Shown in pieces: positions 3,043 to 63,471 of a stretch of 64,000 bases of DNA. Both the position numbers and the translations under genes were made by a program. Numbering within the stretch: position 1 is the first letter of the stretch; each line of letters opens with the position of its first letter. Origin of the DNA: Deltaproteobacteria bacterium (GTDB taxonomy: Bacteria > Desulfobacterota > Binatia > Binatales > Binataceae); assembly GCA_021831785.1 (NCBI GenBank), contig JAKBMB010000013.1, positions 1 to 64,000 on the forward strand, written 5' to 3'. The notes under the pieces were generated by a model. That model was not told the origin of the DNA, did no database searches, and saw only the letters and a list, made by a program, of their open reading frames with translations.

Positions 3043-4188
3043 TCAGAGTGCGGTCTTAGAGGCCAGCCTTTCCAAGGTCAAATCGAAGGCTTTGGCGGCC
3101 TGTTCCTGCAAGCCCGGAATGACGTGAGAATAGGTATCCAGCGTGATTCCGACCGTGGCGTGGCCGAGCCGCTCCGAGACGACCTTGGGATGGATACCGA
3201 GCCGCAGCATCGAAGTAGCGTGGAAATGGCGAAGGGCGTGAAGGTGAGTATCGGCCCGGGCGCGCTTGGCCAGCTCGACGAAACGTAAAGTGAAGGTCGA
3301 AGGCCGGGTTGGCTGCCCGTCGGGTTCGCAGAAGATGAGGCCGTGATCTTGGTAGGCCGGTCCGGCGGCGAGGCGCTCCTTGGCCTGGTCGACGCGATGA
3401 CGGCGAAGAACGGTGATGAGATGGGCGGGCAGCGCGATGGTGCGCCGGCCTTTGGCGATTTTGGGCGTTTTGAAGCTGAGGCCGGCCCTGGTTTCTTCCA
3501 GCGACTGGCTGATGGCGAGCTGGCCGCTATCGAGGTCGAGATCAGACCACCTGAGGGCGAGCAATTCCCCGCGCCTGAGTCCGGTCCCAATCGCGGCCAA
3601 CAGCGGCAGATAGAGGCGTGTCCCTTCCGCGGCCTGAAGCAGCGCCGTTACGTCCGCATCGCTCGGCACGGCTATCTCGCGCGCCGGCGGGCGAGGCGGC
3701 TGCACGGCGTTGGCTGGATTAATGCTAAGCAGGCGCCAGCGCACGGCCTGGTTGAGGGCTTCACGCAGCACGCGATGGTGATGCAGGATGGTGCGTGGCG
3801 CGAGGCTGCCCCTGCCGTCGCGGCGCTGAGCGGCGGCGTAGCACGCCTGAATCTGCAAGGGTTGAAGCTTTGACAAGACCGTGTCGCCCAAGGCTGGGAC
3901 TAAATGCTTGAGCATGATTTCTTGGTAGCGCTCGAAGGTCTTGGGCGAGACCCGGGTTTGCATGAAGGCGAGCCAGCGCTCGGCATAGTCGCGGAAGGAT
4001 AGCCGCGCCGGTTCGACGAAGGCGCCGCTGTTCAGCTCGTTGAGCAACCGCGCCAGCTCCCGTTCCGCATCGCGGCGGTTGCCCCGGACTGTGATCCATT
4101 TTTGGCGCCGCCTGCCGCCGGCGTCTCGCCCGAAGTCCAGAATCAGCGTCCAGGAATCTCTGGAGCGTTTCTTTAAGCTTCCTTTCAC
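3043..4188 (-). CDS. int: Tyrosine recombinase / integrase
   Basis: 381 residues, full length for a phage-type integrase. The N-terminal part (MKGSLKKRSRDSWTLIL, then GGRRRQKWITVRG) resembles an AP2-like arm-binding domain. Residues about 65-165 form the core-binding SAM-like domain (FRDYAERWLAFMQ). The catalytic domain shows Arg in TGLRRGELLALRW, HLHALRHFHAT (HxxR), RLGHATVGITLDTYSH (GH and the Tyr nucleophile). It catalyses integration/excision between the 68-bp att repeats; its position beside tRNA-Sec supports this. The upstream minus-strand gene ends 1 nt before the integrase start, so the two are probably co-translated. Confidence 0.93.
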   Translation of the reverse strand: MKGSLKKRSRDSWTLILDFGRDAGGRRRQKWITVRGNRRDAERELARLLNELNSGAFVEPARLSFRDYAERWLAFMQTRVSPKTFERYQEIMLKHLVPALGDTVLSKLQPLQIQACYAAAQRRDGRGSLAPRTILHHHRVLREALNQAVRWRLLSINPANAVQPPRPPAREIAVPSDADVTALLQAAEGTRLYLPLLAAIGTGLRRGELLALRWSDLDLDSGQLAISQSLEETRAGLSFKTPKIAKGRRTIALPAHLITVLRRHRVDQAKERLAAGPAYQDHGLIFCEPDGQPTRPSTFTLRFVELAKRARADTHLHALRHFHATSMLRLGIHPKVVSERLGHATVGITLDTYSHVIPGLQEQAAKAFDLTLERLASKTAL

Positions 4189-4189
4189 G

Positions 4190-5083
4190 CTACTCCCCCC
4201 TCAGCCAGCCCTTCACGGTCTTGGCGTCTTTGGCGCTGACGCGCCGGGCAATCTCGGCAAGCGGCACGTGCTGAGCGTGTAGCCGGCGCGCCTGGCCGAT
4301 GCGGGCGAGGTAGAGCCGCATCCTACATGCGTTTGAACACGTGAAGCGAGACGGGCGGTTGCCCGCCGATTCGCGGTCAATCAGCATCCACTTACGGCAC
4401 GTCCGGCACTGGCGATAGCTCCTGGCGCAGTCGATTAGTCGGGCGAGCTGGAGCCAAACACAACCCTCAAGCGACGTGGAGACCACGCGCAGCGCAAGAT
4501 GAGTCCGCTCGGTGTTCCAAAGTAGGCGCGCTGAAACGGCGTGTAGGCCGTGGTTGATAGATTCTTGCAGAAGGTATCGCGCCGGACCCGCAAGATCGCC
4601 CCGGCCGAAGCGGCTAAGGCGGTCGGCGTTGATGTCGGTAGTGGCGATGGGAAGCGGAATCTGACCGGGTTCGATGAAGTAGACGCCAGCATCGTCCCAG
4701 CGGATGAGGCGCTGAAGGCCGCCTGAATCGCCGGCGGCGTGGCCGCGCAAGGCGCCGTAGAGCGAGACGGCGGCGCGCAACTGCCCGATCACGAACTGCC
4801 AGGTATCGAAGCTATCCGCGGCTCCTAGCGGCCCGTAGGCGTTGGCGAACGCGAGCACACCGGCGGGCGTTGGCTCGACTTCGGTGAGCCGCAAAAAAAG
4901 ATCATCGGGCAGCAAGTAGCTCTCAAGCTCGTCATTGAGCGGGATCAAGGTCAACGACTCGATCCGGTCCGTCCCCAAATCCAAATCGTCCGCCGCGCGC
5001 AAATCCGCGCGCCGCCAAACGTAACCCGCCGTGCAGCGTTGAAGCCGAAACAGCTCTAAGCCATCATCCGTTTTTGTGCCCAT
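4190..5083 (-). CDS. Uncharacterised element protein with C-terminal Cys4 zinc-finger-like motif
   Basis: 297 residues, not recognised as a named family. The C-terminal quarter has CRTCRKWMLID followed by FTCSNACRMRLYLAR, a CxxC/CxxxC pair like the CGNR-type zinc finger, then a basic helix and AEIARRVSAKDAKTVKGWLRG, which looks like a resolvase-type HTH. The N-terminal 200 residues are acidic and otherwise featureless. A DNA-binding role is inferred, perhaps as repressor or recombination directionality partner, since it is transcribed divergently from the HTH gene at 5143 and coupled to int. Function unproven. Confidence 0.6.
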   Translation of the reverse strand: MGTKTDDGLELFRLQRCTAGYVWRRADLRAADDLDLGTDRIESLTLIPLNDELESYLLPDDLFLRLTEVEPTPAGVLAFANAYGPLGAADSFDTWQFVIGQLRAAVSLYGALRGHAAGDSGGLQRLIRWDDAGVYFIEPGQIPLPIATTDINADRLSRFGRGDLAGPARYLLQESINHGLHAVSARLLWNTERTHLALRVVSTSLEGCVWLQLARLIDCARSYRQCRTCRKWMLIDRESAGNRPSRFTCSNACRMRLYLARIGQARRLHAQHVPLAEIARRVSAKDAKTVKGWLRGE

Positions 5084-50841: not shown

Positions 50842-50919
50842 GCCCCCTTAGCTCAGTTAGGATAGAGCACAGGATTCCTAATCCTGGGGCCGTGGGTTCG
50901 AATCCCGCAGGGGGCGCCA
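50842..50919 (+). tRNA. tRNA-Arg (anticodon CCU)
   Basis: Acceptor GCCCCCT/AGGGGGC, D stem GCTC/GAGC, anticodon stem CAGGA/TCCTG around loop TTCCTAA (anticodon CCT), T stem GTGGG/CCCGC with loop TTCGAAT, discriminator G and encoded CCA (50917-50919). It reads AGG codons. tRNA genes of this type are common integration sites, and the following 9 kb is accessory-like. Confidence 0.93.
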
Positions 50920-51214: not shown

Positions 51215-51780
51215 ATGGCTGAGCAGACACAGGAGATCACACGGATCGCGGTTCCGGCATTGGACGCGATTTTGGGCAAGGATTTTCGTGTCCTCGACAG
51301 CGGCTTCGTTCGCGTCGTGGACTACATGGGCAGCGACGATGCCATTGTCCAAGCAGCGCGTGTCTCTTACGGTCGAGGCACGAAGCGCATTCGTGAGGAT
51401 CGAGGGCTGATCCGATTCTTGATGCGGCATCGGCATACGACCCCTTTCGAGATGTGCGAGATCAAGCTTCACGTTCGAGCACCGATGGACTGCTGGCGGC
51501 AGTGGATTCGGCATCGGACGGCGAACGTGAACGAGTACTCCACCCGATACTCCGTAGCGATAGAGGCGGCCCAGCTGACGCCTCCCGATGCTTGGCGAAC
51601 GCAAGCCACACAGAACCGGCAGGGTTCAGGCGCAGCGATCGACACGTCGGTCGGAGCGGCCCTGTCTGCGCGAGAGGAAGAGCTCCATCGGCTGGCTCGC
51701 GAAGTTTACGAGGAGAGGCTTTCGAAGGGTGTCGCCCGTGAACAGGCCCGCAAAGACCTCCCGCTCTCCACCTACACAGT
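51215..51780 (+). pseudogene. thyX: Truncated FAD-dependent thymidylate synthase (thyX 5' part)
   Basis: About 188 residues look like ThyX: ARVSYGRGTKRIREDRGLIRFLMRHRHTTPFEMCEIKLHVRAPMDCWRQWIRHRTANVNEYSTRYS (the RHRxxS region is present as RHRTANVNEYS), then LSKGVAREQARKDLPLSTYT. After LSTYT the family should continue with the substrate-binding C-terminal ~60 residues, but here the sequence changes abruptly at about 51780. The frame drifts on to 52135 through unrelated sequence. The missing part carries active-site residues, so the product is probably inactive. Confidence 0.78.
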
Positions 51781-52244
51781 TCGCTGCGGTGACCGCGGAG
51801 ATTCAAGCTTCAGGCATCACGATAATCAACGGCACCCCACCGAGAGCAGAAAATCAGTGGCGGAAGGATGCCATTCGGCAGCTGAACGGTATCGACTCTC
51901 TCAGGGAAAAGGAAGAATTCGATACCAGTACGTTCGATTACCGCGAGACGCTCAGGCTCCTATTGGACCTCTACGGGAGATACGGTGCCACCCAGAAGAT
52001 TGTCGTCTCGCCAACGGGCAGCAAGATGCAATCTGTTGCGGTCGGACTGGCATGCGGGTTTCTGAGGGATCTCCAAGTCGTGTATCCCACACCGCAATCG
52101 TTTCCCACGCCGTCGAACTACACAACTGGGGTTAGTAACGTCTATCAACTATCTTTGTCGGCGTTCGCCGCCGTTCCAACGACGGTCGGCGCTTACGATG
52201 TAGGACTCGGTCAAGGATTGGAACGGAGCGATGCAGCCGGTTGA
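51781..52244 (+). pseudogene. 3' remnant of an unrelated gene joined to thyX
   Basis: In the frame that stops at 52244, FAAVTAEIQASGITIINGTPPRAENQWRKDAIRQLNGI leads to LLLDLYGRYGATQKIVVSPTGSKMQSVAVGLACGFLRDLQVVYPTPQSF. This has the composition and strand-turn-helix rhythm of a real protein C-terminus with a Rossmann-like VVSPTGSKMQ turn. It has no start of its own and begins exactly where thyX ends, so a deletion probably fused two genes. I do not recognise the family. Confidence 0.55.
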
Positions 52245-52453: not shown

Positions 52454-52834
52454 TCAGAGAGACGATGCGGGCTTGGGCCTTTCAATGTGGACGACTCTTT
52501 TGCCACCTTGTTCGAAGGCGTGCAATGCAGCTAGCTTCACAGCGCTCTCCTTCAGCGTGCCCTGGGCCGCAATCGCATAGCGACGATAGATCGATTCCGT
52601 GGGATGGCCGACCATCGCCATAGCGGCCGAGCGGGGAGCGCCAGCGCGGTCTAGATTGCGGACCGTCGTACGGCGGAAGTCGTGTGGAATCTTCCCGGCC
52701 GGTCCAGCGCTTCGCTTGCGTAGCACAAGCCTGATCGGAGCAGCGGTAAGCCAACGCATGCGCAAACCGTCGAGGAGGTCCGCGACCCGATGAGGGCGTA
52801 GCAGGCTGCTCCCCATTCGCTCTCGAAGCGTCAC
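52454..52834 (-). pseudogene. C-terminal fragment of a tyrosine recombinase
   Basis: KIPHDFRRTTVRNLDRAGAPRSAAMAMVGHPTESIYRRYAIA contains the HxxR and (G)H...Y end of an integrase catalytic domain, followed by a helical tail. The N-terminal domains and the first Arg motif are absent; the residues before IPHDF do not fit. A relic of an older element near tRNA-Arg. Confidence 0.7.
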
Positions 52835-53477: not shown

Positions 53478-54542
53478 CTAGCGCGCATGCCCCCCGGCCT
53501 GCGCAGCGGGCGGCCGCGGCGTCAAATAACCGGCGAGCGCGCCCAGCGCCGCGCGCAGGTCGGCCTCGCTCACAATATTATAGCGATCGAAGACGCGGCG
53601 GGTTTTGTGCCCGCTAAGCTCCATCGCGACGCGCTCCGAGACGCCGGCCCGCACCAGATTGCGCACCGCCGAGCGGCGCAGGTCGTAGGCCAAAACATCG
53701 GGCATCCCGGCCTGCGCCGCGCCGCGCCGCCAGGCCGCGTCGAAGCGCGAAAGTCTTCGTCCCCGGCGATGAAAGACGTAAGGCGAGTCGGGATGGCGGT
53801 TTTTGAGCGCGCGCTCGATCACGGCGCGCAGCTCGCCGACTATCGGCAGCACGCGCCCGGCGTAGTTCTTGCTGCGCTCGGGCCTAAGTCGGATCAAACC
53901 CGCGTCGTGCTCAACGTCGCGCCATTCCAGCGTGCGCATCTCCGCGGGCCGCCACGCCGACCAATAAAGGAACGTCACCGGGTCCTTGAGGTAGTGGGGC
54001 AAGCACGCCCGTATCGCAGCGAACTCGTCCGGTCCCACGAAGCCTTGGCGCGCGTTGTCTTCGCGCAAAAGCGTGATCGCCGGCAGCGCGCTCAAACGAC
54101 CGGCAAGCCGGCCCAAGCGCAGCATCCGGCGCAGCGCCGCGAGCTCGCGATTGACGGTCGCGCTGGCGGCGCGTTGGGCTAGCCGCGCGCTTACGTACTG
54201 GCGCACGCGCTCGCTCGTGATCTCGCGCGCGCCGACGCCGCCGAAGGCGCGGCGCAGATGCGCAAGCCGGCGCTTGAGCGCGTCAAGCGAGCGGCGGCGG
54301 TTGGCCTCGTAGTCGCGCACTATCAGCGCCGCGAGGTCATCGAAGCTCACGCGTCGCAACTCCGGCGCGATCCATCGCCCGTTCACGACCTCGCCCAGCC
54401 GGCGCTTGAGCAGGGCGCGGGCGTCCGCCGGGCGCACGCTGCGCGAGGATTCGCGCACCTCACGCCCGTCGGCCATGTAGGCGATCCACCACGTGCGCCC
54501 GCGCAAGAACACGCGCCCCATCCCGCGCATCGGCGCGCTCAC
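53478..54542 (-). CDS. Tyrosine recombinase / integrase (second element)
   Basis: 354 residues. N-terminal GRVFLRGRTWWIAYMADGREVRESSR is an AP2-like arm-binding domain; FDDLAALIVRDYEANRRRSL starts the core-binding domain. Catalytic residues: Arg in SAWRPAEMRTLEWRD, AYDLRRSAVRNLVRAG (here YDLRR in place of HxLR, His replaced by Tyr), LSGHKTRRVFDRYNIV (GH and Tyr). Overlaps the upstream gene by 4 nt (ATGA). The loss of the first His is seen in active relatives of this branch, so activity cannot be excluded. Confidence 0.88.
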   Translation of the reverse strand: MSAPMRGMGRVFLRGRTWWIAYMADGREVRESSRSVRPADARALLKRRLGEVVNGRWIAPELRRVSFDDLAALIVRDYEANRRRSLDALKRRLAHLRRAFGGVGAREITSERVRQYVSARLAQRAASATVNRELAALRRMLRLGRLAGRLSALPAITLLREDNARQGFVGPDEFAAIRACLPHYLKDPVTFLYWSAWRPAEMRTLEWRDVEHDAGLIRLRPERSKNYAGRVLPIVGELRAVIERALKNRHPDSPYVFHRRGRRLSRFDAAWRRGAAQAGMPDVLAYDLRRSAVRNLVRAGVSERVAMELSGHKTRRVFDRYNIVSEADLRAALGALAGYLTPRPPAAQAGGHAR

Positions 54543-54934
54543 TTGCCCGCGGCGCGCTCGGCTTGGCGCGCCTGCAGATAGTGTTCGAGCCCCTGGCGGC
54601 TAAAGCGCAGCGCACCGCCCTGGCGCACCAAAAACGGAAACCGCCACGCGTTCTGATAAAGCCACGACTCCGACATGTTGAGCTTGGCCGCGGCCTGGCG
54701 CACGTTGAGTAGGCTGTCGCCGGCCGCGGCCGGCGCATCGGCGCCAAGGGCCTCTGACCTCGCCGCTTGCATCCAGCGCGCCGCCAACGCGCTGCTCACC
54801 GCAGACAGCGCCGCCTGGCGCGCCGCCAGCTCGCCCATCAGCGCCGGAATCGCGTCCGCCGGCAGGCGCGCGGCCAGCGCCGGATCGGCCGCGAGGTCCT
54901 CAATGGTCGCCTGATCTTTGCCCACTGTCACCAC
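54539..54934 (-). CDS. Excisionase-like helix-turn-helix protein
   Basis: 131 residues from GTG, overlapping the upstream HTH gene by 35 nt. The N-terminal ~85 residues are Ala-rich helical. The C-terminal LNVRQAAAKLNMSESWLYQNAWRFPFLVRQGGALRFSRQGLEHYLQAR is the MerR/Xis-type fold with the wing and closing helix. It lies directly before the integrase, as recombination directionality factors often do. Confidence 0.72.
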   Translation of the reverse strand: MVTVGKDQATIEDLAADPALAARLPADAIPALMGELAARQAALSAVSSALAARWMQAARSEALGADAPAAAGDSLLNVRQAAAKLNMSESWLYQNAWRFPFLVRQGGALRFSRQGLEHYLQARQAERAAGK

Positions 54935-55229
54935 GCCATATCGCGAGCACGCTTACCGGAAAGCCGGTAACCTCGGCCAGACGCTCGACACGCTCGTAGG
55001 TCAACTGCCTGACCCCCTGGTCCATCCATTTATAAACGCTCTGGGTGGACACGCCGAGCCGCGTCGCTACGGTCTTGGCCCCGCCGGCCTTGTTCACCCC
55101 GATCGCGACCCAATTGATCGCCCGGCTGGTCTCCGAGCGCAAGCGGCGCACGCCCTCTTCCACAGACCCTTCTCCCAGCTCTTCAATAATCCTGAGCGTG
55201 GCCTCGGTCATGTAATCGCGACGTTCCAC
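54900..55229 (-). CDS. Cro/YdaS-like helix-turn-helix regulator
   Basis: 109 residues from GTG 55229 (GGAGG 6 nt upstream). KAGGAKTVATRLGVSTQSVYKWMDQGVRQLTYERVERLAEVTGFPVSVL is a Cro/YdaS-type HTH. First gene of the regulator-excisionase-integrase operon and divergent from the rightward genes; likely the lysogeny-type switch acting at the operators 55364-55440. Confidence 0.75.
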   Translation of the reverse strand: MERRDYMTEATLRIIEELGEGSVEEGVRRLRSETSRAINWVAIGVNKAGGAKTVATRLGVSTQSVYKWMDQGVRQLTYERVERLAEVTGFPVSVLAIWRGDSGQRSGDH

Positions 55230-55348
55230 GGCGCGCCTCCAAGTTGCAGGATGGACGCAACATAGCGCACCGTAACTGTTTCTGGCAACGAAAACCGCCT
55301 AGTGATTTGGCCACGTGCGTGGGAGACGTTTCTCGACGCTCAAAACAG

Positions 55349-55440
55349 ATAATAAACACCTCACATTTGTAAATCAATATCAATATTTGGTTTATTGGTT
55401 TTTTACTTGACAATAACAAGATATAGTTGTATTTACAAAT
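55349..55440. promoter_or_regulatory. Divergent promoters with twin operators
   Basis: Minus strand: TTGATT (55377-55372), 17-bp spacer, TATTAT (55354-55349). Plus strand: TTGACA (55407-55412), 17-bp spacer, TATTTA (55430-55435). Near each -35/-10 lies one copy of a repeat, ATTTGTAAATCA (55365) and ATTTACAAATCA (55431). The area is strikingly AT-rich compared with its surroundings. Layout resembles a phage immunity region. Confidence 0.78.
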
Positions 55441-55489
55441 CATAGTTAACTAAACTACTTTGGAAGCTCGCCCCTAAGGAATTTAGCGC

Positions 55490-55798
55490 ATGAACCCCTT
55501 ATTTGTTGGCCCACACGGCGATGCGGAGGTCGAGCGCACAGCGTTGCTTGCGTGCTCGGCGCGTAGGCTGGCGCCAAAGCGCAATTCGCTGCGCGCCGGC
55601 GCGACCAATGGCTGTGCGAAGCACACGTCCGCGCGATTACCTCGACTAGGCGCGCTGCGAAATAACTTGGCGAAGCGCAAAGCCGGTGCAAAGCGGACAG
55701 CCGGCTTCCACGCGCTTTGCGCTCCCTGTGAGTATTTGAGCCACACGGAATCCGGCTCCGGCGAGTCTTTGCTCGCCCGTTGCCTGCAGCGCAGTTAA
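55490..55798 (+). CDS. Small hypothetical protein, doubtful
   Basis: 102 residues, with AAGGAA before the ATG and a position directly downstream of the plus-strand promoter. Composition is Ala/Arg/Ser/Cys-rich with no domain. It may be a leader ORF or a chance frame in a non-coding leader. Confidence 0.3.
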   Translation: MNPLFVGPHGDAEVERTALLACSARRLAPKRNSLRAGATNGCAKHTSARLPRLGALRNNLAKRKAGAKRTAGFHALCAPCEYLSHTESGSGESLLARCLQRS

Positions 55799-55815
55799 AA
55801 AGGAGACCAACGCAC

Positions 55816-56763
55816 ATGGAGGCAAAGTCGGCTGCTCAACGCGATCCGGCCGAAGTGGGCGGCGCCGGCCTTCGTATCGACTCCGCGCCCGGCATCGAGC
55901 GCGCCACGGCTGAGCTGCGGGCGGCGCTGCTCATGGCGCGGCGTTTTCCGCGCAACGAGGCCGGGGCCCTCGCCAAGGTAATGCGCGCCTGCGAGCGGCC
56001 CGCGCTCGCGCAGGAGGCGATCTACGCGCTGCGCCGCGCGCGCCAGCTAAGCCTAAGCCCGTCGCTGCGGCTGGCGCGGGTAATCGCCCAAGCCTGGGGA
56101 AATTTGCAGCTCGGCACGCGCGAACTCGTGCGCGACCGCGAGCGCGCGCAGGTCGAGGCCTTCTGCTGGGACCTCGAGTCCAACGTGCGCGAAGTCCGAG
56201 TTTTCGACGTGAGCTATCGCCCGCGCGGAAAAGCTCAAGTGCCGCATGAAGAATCGCGCCGCCCTTACGAGAGCGTCGCCGCGGCCGGCGCGCGACGCCA
56301 GCGCGCGTGTATCCTGGCCTTGATCCCGCAGGACGTGGTCGAGGCTGCGCTTAGCCGATGCGAGGCGACTCTCGCCGAGCTTGACGCGGAAATACCGCTT
56401 TTCAGCCGAGTTAATTCAACTATAGAGCGACTTAAGGAAGAGCATCACGTGAGCCGCGGGGCCGTCGAAGCGCTGCTCGGCTATCCGATCGACCAGGCCG
56501 GCGAAGCCGCCCTGGTGCGGCTGCGCGCGGTGCTCAAGGCGCTGCGCGACGGGTTCGCGCGTCGCGAGGATTTTTTTCCCCTTGCAAGCGAGCCGAGACG
56601 CGGCGGGACAGGCCTTCGCGCTCCGGCGCCGCGCAAGGCGCTCGGTAAAAATGCCGCCCGCGGCACGCGGGCAGCCAAGCCGGGGGCGCAAATAATCACG
56701 CCCGCACCGGGGCCGGAATCAGGCGCCGGCGGCCCGGATTCGACGGTGAGGACGGCGGACTGA
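55816..56763 (+). CDS. Phage-type hypothetical protein, possibly recombination-associated
   Basis: 315 residues from ATG 55816 (AAAAAGGAGA upstream). The segment SPSLRLARVIAQAWGNLQLGTRELVRDRERAQVEAFCWDLESNVREVRVFDVSYR, then AAAGARRQRACILALIPQDVVEAALSRCEATL, follows a pattern common to phage proteins encoded with RecT/exonuclease recombination modules (IRLAEAIAQAWGN..., GARR.RACIL.IIP.DV). The C-terminal ~60 residues are low-complexity and basic. The exact activity of that family is not known to me. Transcribed from the divergent control region. Confidence 0.6.
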   Translation: MEAKSAAQRDPAEVGGAGLRIDSAPGIERATAELRAALLMARRFPRNEAGALAKVMRACERPALAQEAIYALRRARQLSLSPSLRLARVIAQAWGNLQLGTRELVRDRERAQVEAFCWDLESNVREVRVFDVSYRPRGKAQVPHEESRRPYESVAAAGARRQRACILALIPQDVVEAALSRCEATLAELDAEIPLFSRVNSTIERLKEEHHVSRGAVEALLGYPIDQAGEAALVRLRAVLKALRDGFARREDFFPLASEPRRGGTGLRAPAPRKALGKNAARGTRAAKPGAQIITPAPGPESGAGGPDSTVRTAD

Positions 56764-57015
56764 GTGAAATAAGTAAAGCGTTACGTTAAATAACGCCGCG
56801 GGCTTGGTGCGTACGCGCACGATCACTGAGCAAGTGAGACCTGATTACGACTGTTTCAGGGTAAGCGATTCGAAAAGAGACGATACATAGCCGCGCGCGA
56901 AGCGCTCCGCGCAACAGAAACCGGTAAGGGGTCGCCCGGGAACATGGCGTGGGCGAAATTCGCGTCGCGTGATTGGAGTTCACAAGTCGCAACAGATAGG
57001 GAGGTCGATTTGGCG

Positions 57016-57273
57016 ATGATGATCGAGAGTTCCAACCTGGATGAGGTCGCGGCCGTGGGCGCCAACGCCAGCAGCGGGGCGCTTAAGGTCGGTGAGGTGG
57101 CGCGGATGCTGCGATGCCATCCGTCAACAGTCTACCGGATGCTGCGGCGCCGCGAGCTGCGGGCGTTCAAGCTTGGCTCGGACTGGCGCTTTTTGCGCGC
57201 CGATCTGGAGAACTGGATGCGCCACGCGGCTGAGCTGAACGCGGGCCCAGCCGGGCCGGCCGCCGCGCAGTAG
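57016..57273 (+). CDS. Excisionase/HTH DNA-binding protein
   Basis: 85 residues from ATG 57016 (GGGAGG upstream; the frame is open to 56944). GALKVGEVARMLRCHPSTVYRMLRRRELRAFKLGSDWRFLRADLENWM is the MerR-type 'excisionase family' winged HTH with the FKLGSDWRF wing. It may be a third regulator of the element or a stand-alone DNA-binding protein at its right end. Confidence 0.78.
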   Translation: MMIESSNLDEVAAVGANASSGALKVGEVARMLRCHPSTVYRMLRRRELRAFKLGSDWRFLRADLENWMRHAAELNAGPAGPAAAQ

Positions 57274-60139: not shown

Positions 60140-61166
60140 GCGACGCTATCTAACGCCCGCCAGGCACCCCATATATCATCGCGGCCGAGCTCGTAGCGGA
60201 GGGGTCCTATGCTGCGCGGGCGAGGCCCACGCCCCCTTTCCCGGCCCTCCTCCTGGAAGAGACTGTCGGGAAACAGAAAAATCGCCGCGCGCAGATTCTT
60301 CACTCCGGCAGCCGGACTTTATGCTCAGAGTTTGTGAGTTTTTTGGGTTCCGCCCAATCTTGTGTCATCTTGAGCGAAGGCCGGCGCGGCGAGAGTCGAA
60401 AGACCCCTAGTTTTTCCGCGATCCTTCGACTCGCGCAACGCTCGCTCAGGATTACACCAGACGCTAACGTCAAAAAAATCACAAACTCCGAGCGAAGCCG
60501 AAGGGTTCAGAATGACAGCGAACCCGGGATTCTTCGATTCCGGCGGCCTGCGCTCGCAATGACAGAAGAACGGCGACCTTCGTTCAGAATGAAGGAAGAA
60601 CCGGGCCTTTTCCGTCATGCTGAGAGGTTGTGAATCTTTTCTAGTGGGGCGGGCATCCCTTCGACACGACTCAGGGCAGGTCCTTCGGCTTCGCTCAGAA
60701 CAGGCTCCGGGCCGCCCCACTAGAGACCCATCGGGTGCAGCCGACGACGGCATGCGGCAGCGCGGGCGAGGCCAGGCCCCCCTTCCTCTCCTTCCCCCGC
60801 CGCGCGGGAAAAGGCTGGGAAAGGGATGCCTTCGCGCGCTTTCAGCACCCTCACCCCTGCCCTCTCCCAGAGGGCGAGGGAGCAGAAACGGCTCGCGGCC
60901 TTCGACTCCTTCCCTCGTCACGCTGCTTTTTCCTACTCCTTCCCCCGCAAGCCGGGGAAGAAACCAGAAATAGGACCTTGCCGGCGTTGCCGGGAGAAGG
61001 CGAGGATGGGGGCGACTCGGGCTTTTAGCGCGGGATGACAGGCTAAGAGCCTGCCGCACGGTAGAAGAATAAGCTGAGCGTGCGCCTATCGCTATGTTGC
61101 GCAGTCGTCAGTAGCATTAACCAGGGTTGCAGTGCGTCGAGCACAAAGGGGGAATAACGGGCTTCG
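60140..61166. other. Repeat-rich non-coding stretch
   Basis: No gene. Contains tandem copies of the CCTTCG...CTCAGG micro-repeat at 60657-60704 inserted between the halves of a disrupted GTGGGGCGGGC...GCCGCCCCAC arm, further related copies around 60380-60520, and a CCTCACCCCTGCCCTCTCCC-type palindromic unit near 60845-60890 whose partner form recurs at about 63170-63205. Confidence 0.6.
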
Positions 61167-62843
61167 ATGGCTACGCTTAAGGTGCTGAATCCGGTGGCCG
61201 AGCCGGTGGAGAGCCATTTCGAGCGCGCGGTGCGGCCGGCGAGTCTTGAGGGCAAGCGCGTCGGACTTTACTGGAATATGAAGAGCGGCGGGGAGGCGGC
61301 GCTGGATCGGGTCGAGGAGCTGTTGCGCGCGCGCTACGCCGGCGTGACCTTCGCGCGGGCGCAGGGCAGCGTGGGTTTTCTGATGCGCCACGCGACGGCG
61401 GCCGACGCCGCGCGGATCGCCGCCGAGTGCAACGTCGTCGTCGGCACGACCGCCGATTGAGGGTCATGCACGTCGTGGCTTGTCCACGACCTCGTTGAGT
61501 TGGAGAAGCGCGGCGTTGCCACCGTCGCGATGACCGCCGAGGCCTTCGTGCGCGACGCGCGGCGCAGCGCCGCGAGCTTCGGTATCGCGGACCTGCCGCT
61601 GGCCGTGGTGCCCCTGCCCTTCACCAACCAGCCCGCCGAAGCGATTCACGCCGCGGCCGCGGGCGCGATCGAACAGGTGATCGCGGGCCTCACGCGCGAG
61701 AGCGCCGACGGCGCGCCGCCACAGGAGATCGTCCTGCTCAAGGACGAGCATCTCACTTTCACCGGCGCCGACGCGCTCCAGGCCGCCGAGCGGATGGACC
61801 GCACGTTCCTTGAATACGGATGGAGCGACGGCTTGCCGGCCCGCCCGCCGACCGCGGGCGCGGTGGAGGCGATGCTCGCCGGCACGCGGCGCGACCCGGA
61901 CGAGCTAATCGCGGTGCTCGAGCCCGGCTTCGGCAAGGCAACGGTGCGCAAGCTCGCGGCCAACGCGGTGATGGCCGGATGCCGGCCGGAGCATCTGCCG
62001 GTGCTGATCGCGGCGCTCCAATGTCTGGCCGAGCCCGCGATGCATCTGCGCAACAAGGCGATGTCAACCGGGCCGCATGCGCCGCTGGTATGGGTCAACG
62101 GGCCGATTCGCGCGCGGATCGGGCTTAACTCGGGGATGTGCGCGCTGGGGCCTGGGGCGCCGTCGTTCGCCAACACGGTGATCGGCCGCGCGCTGAGGCT
62201 CAGCATGATGAACCTCGGCCATTGTTACCCCGGCGTCTCCGACATGGACACTATCGGCAGCCCCGCCAAGTACGGCATGTGCGTGGGCGAGAACGAGGAG
62301 CGCAACCCGTGGACGCCCTACCATGTCGAGCGCGGGATGGCCGCCGAGCAGAGCGTGGTGACCGTGCATTTCGTCTATGGGTTGTGCGAGCTGTTCGACT
62401 TCGCCAGCGCCGAGCCCGACGGGCTGCTCACCGTGTTCGCCTCGCCGCCGGCCAACCTGGCGCAGGTCGCGACCGCGATGTGGCTTATCGGGCGGCGCGC
62501 CGACCCGCGCTACGACACCGAGGAGCAGGAGCATCATACGCTGTTCGTCTGTCCGGAGCATGCCAAGCTTTTCGCCGCGGGCGGCTTTGACAAGCCTGGT
62601 TTGCGCCGCGCCCTGTTCAAGGCCGCGCGCATCCCGTTTAGGCTCGCGATGCTCAACAAGGAGCGCAAAGCGATGGCGGCCGCGCGGCCGGACCTGATGT
62701 GGCTGTGGGAGAGCCCCGAAACGATGGTGCCAGTGGTGGAGGACCCGTCGTGCTACGAGATCGTCGTGGTCGGCGGCGCGGCCGGCCGCGGGACCTTCTT
62801 CTGGGGCGCGGGCGAGCCGCGAAGCCGCGCCATCGAGGATTAA
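61167..62843 (+). CDS. UGSC-family selenoprotein, read through UGA
   Basis: 558 residues if TGA 61458-61460 is read as selenocysteine (residue 98): VVGTTAD-U-GSCTSWLVHDLVELEKRGV. U-G-S-C is the redox motif that names the UGSC (seleno)protein family, and the sequence on both sides of the UGA is one continuous domain (to about residue 190). The rest (YGWSDGLPARPPTAGAVEAML, LAANAVMAGCRPEHLPVLIAAL, GMCVGENEERNPWTPYHVERG) is a second, uncharacterised domain with several Cys. Support: SECIS-like hairpin 11 nt after the UGA and tRNA-Sec in the window. An ordinary annotation would split it at 61460 and restart at 61500. Reaction unknown; a thiol-redox role is likely. Confidence 0.87.
61472..61490 (+). 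promoter_or_regulatory. bSECIS-like hairpin downstream of the Sec codon
   Basis: GTCGTGG (61472-61478), loop CTTGT, CCACGAC (61484-61490): a perfect 7-bp stem, its loop starting 19 nt after the UGA, inside the range known for bacterial SECIS elements, and containing G-U as SelB-bound loops do. It lies within the coding sequence, as bacterial SECIS elements must. Confidence 0.75.
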
Positions 62844-62861: not shown

Positions 62862-63122
62862 ATGGCCGCGGATATTTTGGCACAACGAGTGATCGAGCAG
62901 GCGCGGGGCCTCGTCGAAGCCGACGGCGGCGACCTGCGCCTGATCAGCGTTGAGCGCGGGTGCGCCCGCGTCGCCTACCGGATGGGCCGCAACGAGCGAT
63001 GCGCCGAATGCGTGCTTGCGCCCGAGGACCTGCGCGGCTTTTTACTCGAGATGTTCGCCCGCGGCGCGCCCCATATCATCGCGGTCGAGCTCGAAGTGGA
63101 CCGACCCGACGACGCCGCGTAG
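62862..63122 (+). CDS. NifU C-terminal-like domain protein
   Basis: 86 residues, 18 nt after the selenoprotein gene. IEQARGLVEADGGDLRLISVERGCARVAYRMGRNERCAECVLAPEDLRGFLLEMF follows the NifU/NfuA C-terminal domain (the P.L..DGGDv.LV.v..G.v.V...G.C..C pattern) with CxxC in RCAEC. NifU domains carry and transfer Fe-S clusters. The spacing from CxxC on is less typical (VLAPEDL), so a relative with another role is possible. Probably co-transcribed with the selenoprotein. Confidence 0.7.
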   Translation: MAADILAQRVIEQARGLVEADGGDLRLISVERGCARVAYRMGRNERCAECVLAPEDLRGFLLEMFARGAPHIIAVELEVDRPDDAA

Positions 63123-63141: not shown

Positions 63142-63378
63142 CGGGCCTGGCGGCCCGCCTTTTCTGCCCCCTCGCCCTTTGGGAGAGGGCTGGGGTGAGG
63201 GTGCTGTTTCGGGCCGCGTGGCACAAGGCAGGTTCGGGCCTGCGGCCCGAAATGCGGGCACGGCGGCCCGCCCCACTAGAATAAAGAGAAGCAAGGCGGG
63301 CACGGCGGCCCGCCCCACTAGAATAGAGAGCAGCGCAAGCACGGTGCCCGGCCTGCTGGCAGCATGGCCCGCCCCACT
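63142..63378. repeat. REP-like repeat array
   Basis: Three arm copies (63254, 63296 and a degenerate one near 63335-63378) plus two GGTTCGGGCC units (63143, 63231) and a CTCGCCCTTTGGGAGAGG-type palindrome near 63170. The array fills the gap between the NifU-like gene and the SMP-30 gene. Confidence 0.75.
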
Positions 63379-63471
63379 GGAAGAGAGAGCGTTGCGGCAT
63401 ACTAAGTCTTTGGACGCAGTATCTTCATAAGCCTGCATGGTGAAGGGTGTTTTTAAAGACAGGTATCGCAA

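Follow-up and report, generated by a model that had tools for sequence, protein, structure and literature searches.

Gene Organization at the UGSC-X Locus

The window analyzed here, a stretch of 64,000 nucleotides, contains near its right-hand end a gene for a predicted two-domain selenoprotein (hereafter UGSC-X), followed by a small gene on the same strand:

61167-62843, + strand: UGSC-X fusion selenoprotein gene, 558 aa with UGA read as Sec98; its sole internal stop codon is TGA
61182-61694, + strand: UGSC domain, residues 6-176 (PF24696, 129.8 bits, cut-off 25)
61458-61460, + strand: UGA codon, predicted Sec98 in the motif D-U-G-S-C-T-S-W; TGA in 6/7 close relatives, aligned with the Sec of GrdB
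61472-61490, + strand: SECIS-like hairpin with a 7-bp stem and the loop CUUGU, seen in comparative covariation and not significant in the window gene alone
61770-62840, + strand: partner domain X, about residues 202-558; no Pfam family; occurs fused to UGSC or alone beside it
62862-63122, + strand: gene for a small CxxC protein resembling the NifU C-terminal domain, 18 nt past the end of UGSC-X (PF01106, 26.4 bits, cut-off 27)

As the sequence-only reading had proposed, a single frame runs through the gene and is broken by the TGA at 61458 only, within TTAD-U-GSCTSW; this codon corresponds to residue 98. Full-length relatives share the start Met of UGSC-X. The PF24696 score, far over the cut-off, places the protein in the UGSC family, while the NCBIfam equivalog model NF041046 gave 101.3 bits, below its cut-off of 125; the protein is therefore considered a divergent, multi-domain member of the family and not the equivalog. 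A Pfam scan at E 1 retrieved only UGSC and two chance-level families, both in the UGSC half.

The NifU-like gene occupies the same position in the genome G379, which belongs to another genus of the same family, and a homologue lies 2.6 kb from UGSC-X in Phytohabitans. As a general partner it was sought with little success: strong matches were found in only 2 of the 38 genomes of the phylum sample that carry UGSC or X, plus Phytohabitans, and none in the plasmid records described below. The operon is flanked by GC-rich, repeat-like non-coding stretches with CTCTCCC/GGGAGAG (~60600-61030 and 63150-63400).

Selenocysteine Insertion

Since a separate ORF (61500-62843) opens 39 nt past the UGA, the codon could be a real stop, so that translation would yield one product of 97 aa and, after re-initiation, another of 447 aa; alternatively, the gene could be decaying. 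The relatives argue against this. A scan of GTDB species genomes yielded seven UGSC-X relatives with 57-73% identity (six full-length and one truncated at a contig end), of which six have TGA at the Sec codon and one, in Phytohabitans suffuscus, has TGC (Cys). In the wider family, gathered with an iterated profile over the collected loci, TGA, never TAA or TAG, stands in 39 of the 42 UGSC rows, TGC in one and neither in two. The frame downstream of the codon is conserved across 450 residues, which also speaks against a stop.

The genome encodes SelA (582.5 bits, cut-off 268), SelB (377.8 bits, cut-off 242) and SelD (382.7 bits, cut-off 125), as well as a tRNA-Sec located within the window:

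2830-2921, + strand: tRNA-Sec, anticodon TCA (RF01852, 71.4 bits, cut-off 47; ARAGORN 2830-2924)

The selD gene, 0.2 kb downstream of selB, has an in-frame TGA itself, so that SelD is probably a selenoprotein too; the two genes are neighbors on contig C4 of this genome (G000), at 203223-206229. SelA exceeded its cut-off in 36 of the 38 genomes with UGSC or X in the phylum sample. One genome (G092) offers a natural control: it has Cys at the Sec site, and both SelA and SelB are without a match over the cut-off, as expected if Sec was replaced upon loss of the machinery. Another (G198; loci L030, L062, L114, and L115) has TGA-bearing UGSC-X genes, yet neither SelA nor SelB gave a match over the cut-off, with the genome rated 100% complete; the simplest guess is an assembly gap.

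The perfect 7-bp hairpin noted in the initial reading is present, with the stem at 61472-61478/61484-61490, beginning 11 nt downstream of the UGA, and the loop at 61479-61483, beginning 19 nt after it. As an argument for Sec it proved weak on the single gene and convincing in the multi-gene comparison. In the window gene alone, synonymous recodings matched the stem in 17% of trials (p about 0.17), a result that fits a real stop as well; the minimum-energy fold of 61455-61510 lacks the stem, and the stability of this fragment does not exceed that of shuffles (z +0.39). An Rfam search of 61400-61600 gave five weak matches, with no SECIS family among them.

In contrast, when the best stem of each of the 39 TGA genes was compared with synonymous recodings, the combined p was 3.6e-14 (related genes being treated as independent), while the three non-TGA genes gave p of 0.57-0.93. 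The hairpin is missing from L042, one of the TGA genes. Covariation was assessed in 26 of the 39 TGA genes (25 distinct) that share one alignment register. Paired cells made up 94.3% in the 25 distinct genes and 12.0-60.0% when the partners were slid by 1-3; covariation was 0.376 versus 0.162 in shuffles, a value reached by 0/500 of them, and 22 hairpin cells were altered on both sides. Weaker covariation measures were unremarkable, double-change pairs being reached by 40/500 shuffles and further pair types by 236/500. Moreover, the loop serine codon is AGT in 15/15 genes, versus 19/176 serines elsewhere in the same genes. The hairpin expected of a bacterial selenoprotein gene is thus seen as covariation across 25 distinct genes.

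With Sec or Cys at position 98 of the homologues and with selA, selB, and selD in the genome, the initial proposal of a true Sec residue has withstood both checks on it, and the sequence comparisons indicate that UGSC-X is almost certainly a selenoprotein with Sec inserted at residue 98. Translation stop or gene decay is extremely improbable given that the hairpin covaries and has been lost from the Cys gene and that the Sec machinery is complete, and was rejected on the conservation of the Sec codon across relatives. The prediction that gene callers would split such genes is borne out in public records of relatives: the UGSC gene ends as a 96-aa hypothetical protein in Acidovorax sp. T1 (L117, 8640-8930), and appears as 95- and 80-aa hypothetical pieces in Paracoccus ferrooxidans (L131, 7390-7959). 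In the latter, selB is located 3 kb from the UGSC gene.

Prophage-Like Setting

To the left of UGSC-X, the window contains a group of phage-type genes:

53478-54542, - strand: tyrosine-type phage integrase (phrog_1, 4.5e-47; PF00589, 3e-19), 76% identical and in the same order in G379
54539-55229, - strand: excisionase-like HTH and YdaS/repressor-like HTH genes (phrog_66, 4.8e-5; PF15943, 2.2e-7; several phage repressor PHROGs)
55780-56763, + strand: phrog_3657 gene (phrog_3657, 2.2e-65), order conserved in G379
56944-57273, + strand: excisionase-like HTH gene (phrog_66, 7.5e-12), order conserved in G379

To the right, past 9 kb of metabolic genes, there are endolysin, tail, head maturation protease and portal genes. 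An integrase with excisionase and repressor, together with head, tail and lysis genes, as in temperate prophages, thus occurs in one block of about 54 kb, extending from 53478-57273 of the window onward to ~107.6 kb of the contig (C13) and collinear with contig C24 of G379. There, the same gene order spans 65.9 to ~107 kb: integrase at 65.9 kb, regulators to 69.7 kb, UGSC-X at 70.8-72.5 kb, the NifU-like gene, endolysin at 74.7-75.3 kb, and tail and portal genes to ~104 kb. With integrase and repressor genes on one side of it and endolysin, tail and portal genes on the other, UGSC-X probably belongs to a prophage-like block, and in this genome as well as in one related genus it looks like prophage cargo.

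Alternatively, the phage-like genes to the left and right might be separate remnants, with UGSC-X on ordinary chromosomal DNA between them. Two observations could suggest this: 9 kb of metabolic genes separate UGSC-X from the endolysin gene in this genome, and no att-like repeat of at least 17 nt was found between the sampled end stretches (the contig of this genome stops at 107782). This alternative is rather improbable, given that the compact block of G379 has the identical order from integrase through tail and portal genes.

Several further features of the region were observed. Compared with G379, the block of this genome has gained sugar-lactonase, CoxM/CoxL/CoxS-type, and acyl-CoA ligase genes. 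The portal frame, at ~102.1-106.4 kb of C13 (L150, 9209-13477), is interrupted relative to that of G379; parts of it match phrog_85 (thymidylate synthase) and may represent an intein or an insertion. Outside the block, an ORF at 51215-52244 starts like what we take to be a ThyX-type thymidylate synthase and switches to unrelated sequence after its start region; an integrase-like fragment (52454-52834) and a tRNA-Arg gene (50842-50916) are located nearby.

No relatives of UGSC were found in phage records, nor in IMG/VR, where the searches included one pattern with TGA and one with Cys codons at the Sec site, the latter blind to TGA. There is a report of a phage tRNA-Sec (PMC6145125). Among the 12 of 159 literature matches listed, a selenoprotein gene carried by a phage was absent, which lends thin support to novelty.

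Domain X Is the Regular Partner of UGSC

The C-terminal ~360 residues had been described, from sequence alone, as a second, uncharacterised domain. They indeed match no Pfam family, but the domain is probably not new, as the UGSC family and a fusion of UGSC to a domain named "Unknown_1" were described in a 2008 survey (PMC2398784), which makes Unknown_1 a candidate identity of X.

UGSC or X matches were found in 38 of the 395 genomes of the phylum. Sorting of these matches, with three fragments left out, gave 34 UGSC-X fusions in 18 genomes (30 of them with TGA), 21 lone UGSC genes, and 29 lone X genes. All but one of the lone UGSC genes (20/21) are at most 1.5 kb from a same-strand X, and 9/29 lone X genes have no separate UGSC within 1.5 kb. 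The genome studied here has both forms, the fusion in the window and a separate X followed by a TGA-bearing UGSC at C14:58624-60181 (L058). The C14 X protein has an N-terminal domain with CPTC and, later, VPT, which is thioredoxin-like by eye and had no Pfam match at E 0.1. Such CxxC thioredoxin-like domains are fused to X in 8/42 X proteins, one of which is that of this genome; Pfam applied to three of the fused domains gave one AhpC-TSA match over the cut-off and one Redoxin match below it.

The association extends to plasmid records, of which tblastn found 24. Among the 17 examined, X is present in 17/17 and UGSC stands beside X in 16; the Sec site has TGA in three (Acidovorax and two Paracoccus), Cys in 11, and Met in two (Sporomusa and Vibrio). 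By these counts X is the regular partner of UGSC, fused or adjoining, and it is highly likely that the two act as one enzyme. As the Sporomusa and Vibrio proteins have neither Sec nor Cys, yet keep X, not every member would be a redox enzyme. The Met-form UGSC-X genes of Sporomusa termitida (L125, 7407-9131) and Vibrio europaeus (L128, 7323-9008) are near aconitase X and DUF126 genes.

Modeled alone (pLDDT 74), X gave no clear fold match; the best was class I fumarate hydratase, with a Foldseek E of 0.0039 and a Z of 4.5. Cys272 of X is near-conserved, being present in 35/42 X proteins and replaced by Ala in 7/42. A Fe-S cluster in X, a candidate prompted by the NifU-like neighbor and the weak fumarase match, was rejected: as Cys272 is the only near-conserved cysteine, the cluster is unsupported.

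Relationship to GrdB and Fold of the UGSC Domain

GrdB is the selenoprotein of glycine, sarcosine and betaine reductases, and in glycine reductase Sec is reported for both GrdA and GrdB (PMC3091704, PMC10298544). The profile of 42 UGSC rows was compared (hhalign) with that of 12 GrdB proteins found with PF07355, and gave a probability of 96.9% at E 1.9e-10; the alignment covers 131 columns and places Sec on Sec, and 20 column-shuffled controls yielded at most 0.4%. In addition, NF041046 matched one of two GrdB proteins (E 1.7e-5) at residues 345-403, that is, in the Sec region, the other being unmatched. Searches of the UGSC-X protein against PF07355, TIGR01918, and TIGR04483 gave no match at E up to 1. 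Judging by the profile comparison, the UGSC domain very probably shares ancestry with the Sec-bearing C-terminal part of GrdB. In a literature search of limited reach, no statement relating UGSC to GrdB was found.

X shows no such similarity: its profile comparison with GrdB gave 0.1%, and X is also unlike UGSC. X as a relative of GrdE was considered and rejected on the same profile value and on the absence of PF09338 from X in Pfam scans. GrdE itself (PF09338) was found in 4/38 UGSC/X genomes; it is absent in 34/38 and in the genome studied here, where GRDB has a single match elsewhere, weak and partial.

UGSC is classed with thioredoxin-like folds in reviews (PMC2398784, PMC13188914). However, residues 25-180 of the predicted model (mean pLDDT 75) adopt a Rossmann-like fold. 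Its best structural match is 8au6 (Z 10.5, rmsd 3.0, 140 residues aligned), followed by PurE, LarB and cobalamin-binding chains; the Foldseek list is weak, with one match below E 0.001. The model thus favors a Rossmann-like over a thioredoxin fold for UGSC. Sequence searches of solved structures gave nothing below E 0.28 for the UGSC-X protein, and no match for X or GrdB.

Gene Neighborhoods and Possible Mechanism

Predicted thioredoxin reductase, thioredoxin or thioredoxin-like-X fusion genes recur beside UGSC/X in other genomes. The gene row is trxB-trxA-X-UGSC in Arthrobacter and X-UGSC-trxB in Roseovarius; in Variovorax SRS16 trxB is two genes upstream, and UGSC-X of Phytohabitans is preceded by a NifU-like gene and trxA. 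In Haloterrigena and V. boronicumulans, TrxB-like genes below the curated cut-off adjoin UGSC/X. Over 57 loci, 8/9 TrxB-type genes are at most 2 kb from UGSC/X, the expected share being 29% (p 3.4e-4; five of these eight adjacent genes had trained the profile). They represent 8/57 loci, and seven of the eight are among the 17 plasmid loci. Beside the gene of the window itself, neither TrxB nor TrxA nor a fused thioredoxin domain is present.

Other neighbors elsewhere include TRAP/Tct transporters (9/34 loci with a core), CoA transferases, MmgE/PrpD, UbiD, and acyl-CoA enzymes, counted raw and without background control; they point to catabolism of small carboxylates. Mo-hydroxylase genes are near UGSC-X in the loci of five families (likewise a raw count without background). 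Calls of neighboring genes are crude: wrong frames were chosen in some GC-rich loci, among them L006, L007, L009, and L011, and no core was found in L107 and L113. An annotated phosphosulfolactate synthase gene is located near one UGSC-X locus (L119, 6656-7444), and near another there is an ORF that we take to be sulfopyruvate-decarboxylase-like (L009, ~3962-5073); these two are a hint at sulfonate metabolism.

In glycine reductase, electrons from NADPH are described as passing via thioredoxin reductase and thioredoxin, with selenoether and selenenylsulfide intermediates (PMC3091704, PMC10298544), and a GrdB-like pair has been proposed to cleave the C-F bond of fluoroacetate (PMC10838667). By analogy, a reductase fed by thioredoxin is a moderately favored function of UGSC-X. 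SelA, SelB, SelD, and tRNA-Sec of its own genome almost certainly serve to read the UGA at 61458 as Sec98, which could be a selenolate nucleophile at a helix start in the Rossmann-like domain. Sec98 may attack a small substrate that is held by X and probably bears a carboxylate, and the bound intermediate would be released as a selenenylsulfide forms, the partner of which could be Cys101 or Cys272. Thioredoxin and NADPH-thioredoxin reductase would then reset the selenol. X would replace the pyruvoyl subunit GrdE, the absence of which from this genome and from most UGSC/X genomes suggests that X does its part. It is more doubtful that cleavage goes through a Se-carbon intermediate, as it does in GrdB.

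Two other functions were weighed. UGSC-X might be a detoxifying thiol/selenol peroxidase or disulfide reductase of thioredoxin-like fold, with X as an accessory. The UxxC motif, the thioredoxin genes nearby and the listing of UGSC as a thioredoxin-like-fold selenoprotein in the reviews (PMC2398784, PMC13188914) agree with this, as does the peroxidase activity of GrdB indicated by a cited title; but the UGSC model is Rossmann-like, with Z 10.5 to 8au6, the profile match is GrdB, and the neighbors serve uptake and catabolism of organic acids, not stress response, which makes such a function unlikely. Still less likely is a role as lyase in the catabolism of imported carboxylates, dehydratase-like or with cleavage of C-S/C-N bonds, through covalent Sec without net redox, with X distantly of class I fumarase type. 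The thioredoxin linkage argues for net reduction, the fumarase Z value falls in the chance range and X has no three conserved cysteines for a Fe-S cluster, against which stand the transporter, CoA transferase, MmgE/PrpD, and UbiD genes nearby, the weak fumarate hydratase matches, the existence of Sec/Cys-free members, and the ComA-like and TPP-decarboxylase-like genes in two loci that hint at sulfonates.

As a whole, the model in which Sec98-bearing UGSC-X is a thioredoxin-fed, GrdB-like reductase with X replacing GrdE, located in a prophage-like block, appears somewhat more probable than its negation. More tentatively, and with slightly less than even confidence, UGSC and X could represent an unrecognised class of Se-dependent reductases, in which a GrdB-type Sec module and X are fed by thioredoxin, distributed in bacteria and haloarchaea (with Cys where Sec was lost), and carried in this bacterial family as temperate-phage cargo with the whole Sec machinery supplied by the host.

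Comparison with Known Systems

UGSC is among the commonest selenoprotein families of ocean metagenomes, with 255 in a 2008 survey table (PMC2398784) and 8.2% of selenoproteins in a 2021 ocean-metagenome figure; a 2026 review places it among families of largely unknown function (PMC13188914). With the GrdB link, the constant partner and the thioredoxin supply, this orphan family would become a reductase that can be tested and whose components have names; some of these are available as Cys forms in cultured organisms, which makes expression in ordinary hosts feasible. Provided that its placement in a prophage is correct, UGSC-X would also be a phage-borne gene dependent on UGA recoding by its host.

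UGSC-X represents a family and a type of fusion that were already known, since both UGSC and UGSC-"Unknown_1" appeared in print in 2008 (PMC2398784). It shares with the family (PF24696, NF041046; PMC2398784) the high PF24696 score, the UGSC motif and Sec with occasional Cys. It differs in falling below the NF041046 cut-off and in its location in a prophage-like block, and the partner domain is now seen as a regular, often unfused neighbor. The relationship with GrdB, the almost invariable pairing with X, the association with thioredoxin and the prophage-like location are new, reaction and substrate being those we infer above.

With GrdB (TIGR01918, PF07355), UGSC-X shares a very probably homologous Sec region (UGSCTSW versus UGTCTRC in GrdB), the Sec position, a SECIS-like hairpin at equal distance, and the thioredoxin link. 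Unlike GrdB, it lacks the long N-terminal part modeled by PF07355, and its partner X is unrelated by sequence, with GrdE absent from this genome. The D-proline reductase subunit PrdB (TIGR04483) is related to GrdB over the Sec region, so that its likeness to UGSC goes via GrdB; it is likewise a short selenoprotein with a separate substrate-binding partner, but this partner, PrdA, is a pyruvoyl proprotein. Finally, thioredoxin-fold selenoproteins (Prx-like and Trx-like) have in common with UGSC the UxxC motif and nearby thioredoxin genes, whereas the fold of UGSC is modeled as Rossmann-like.
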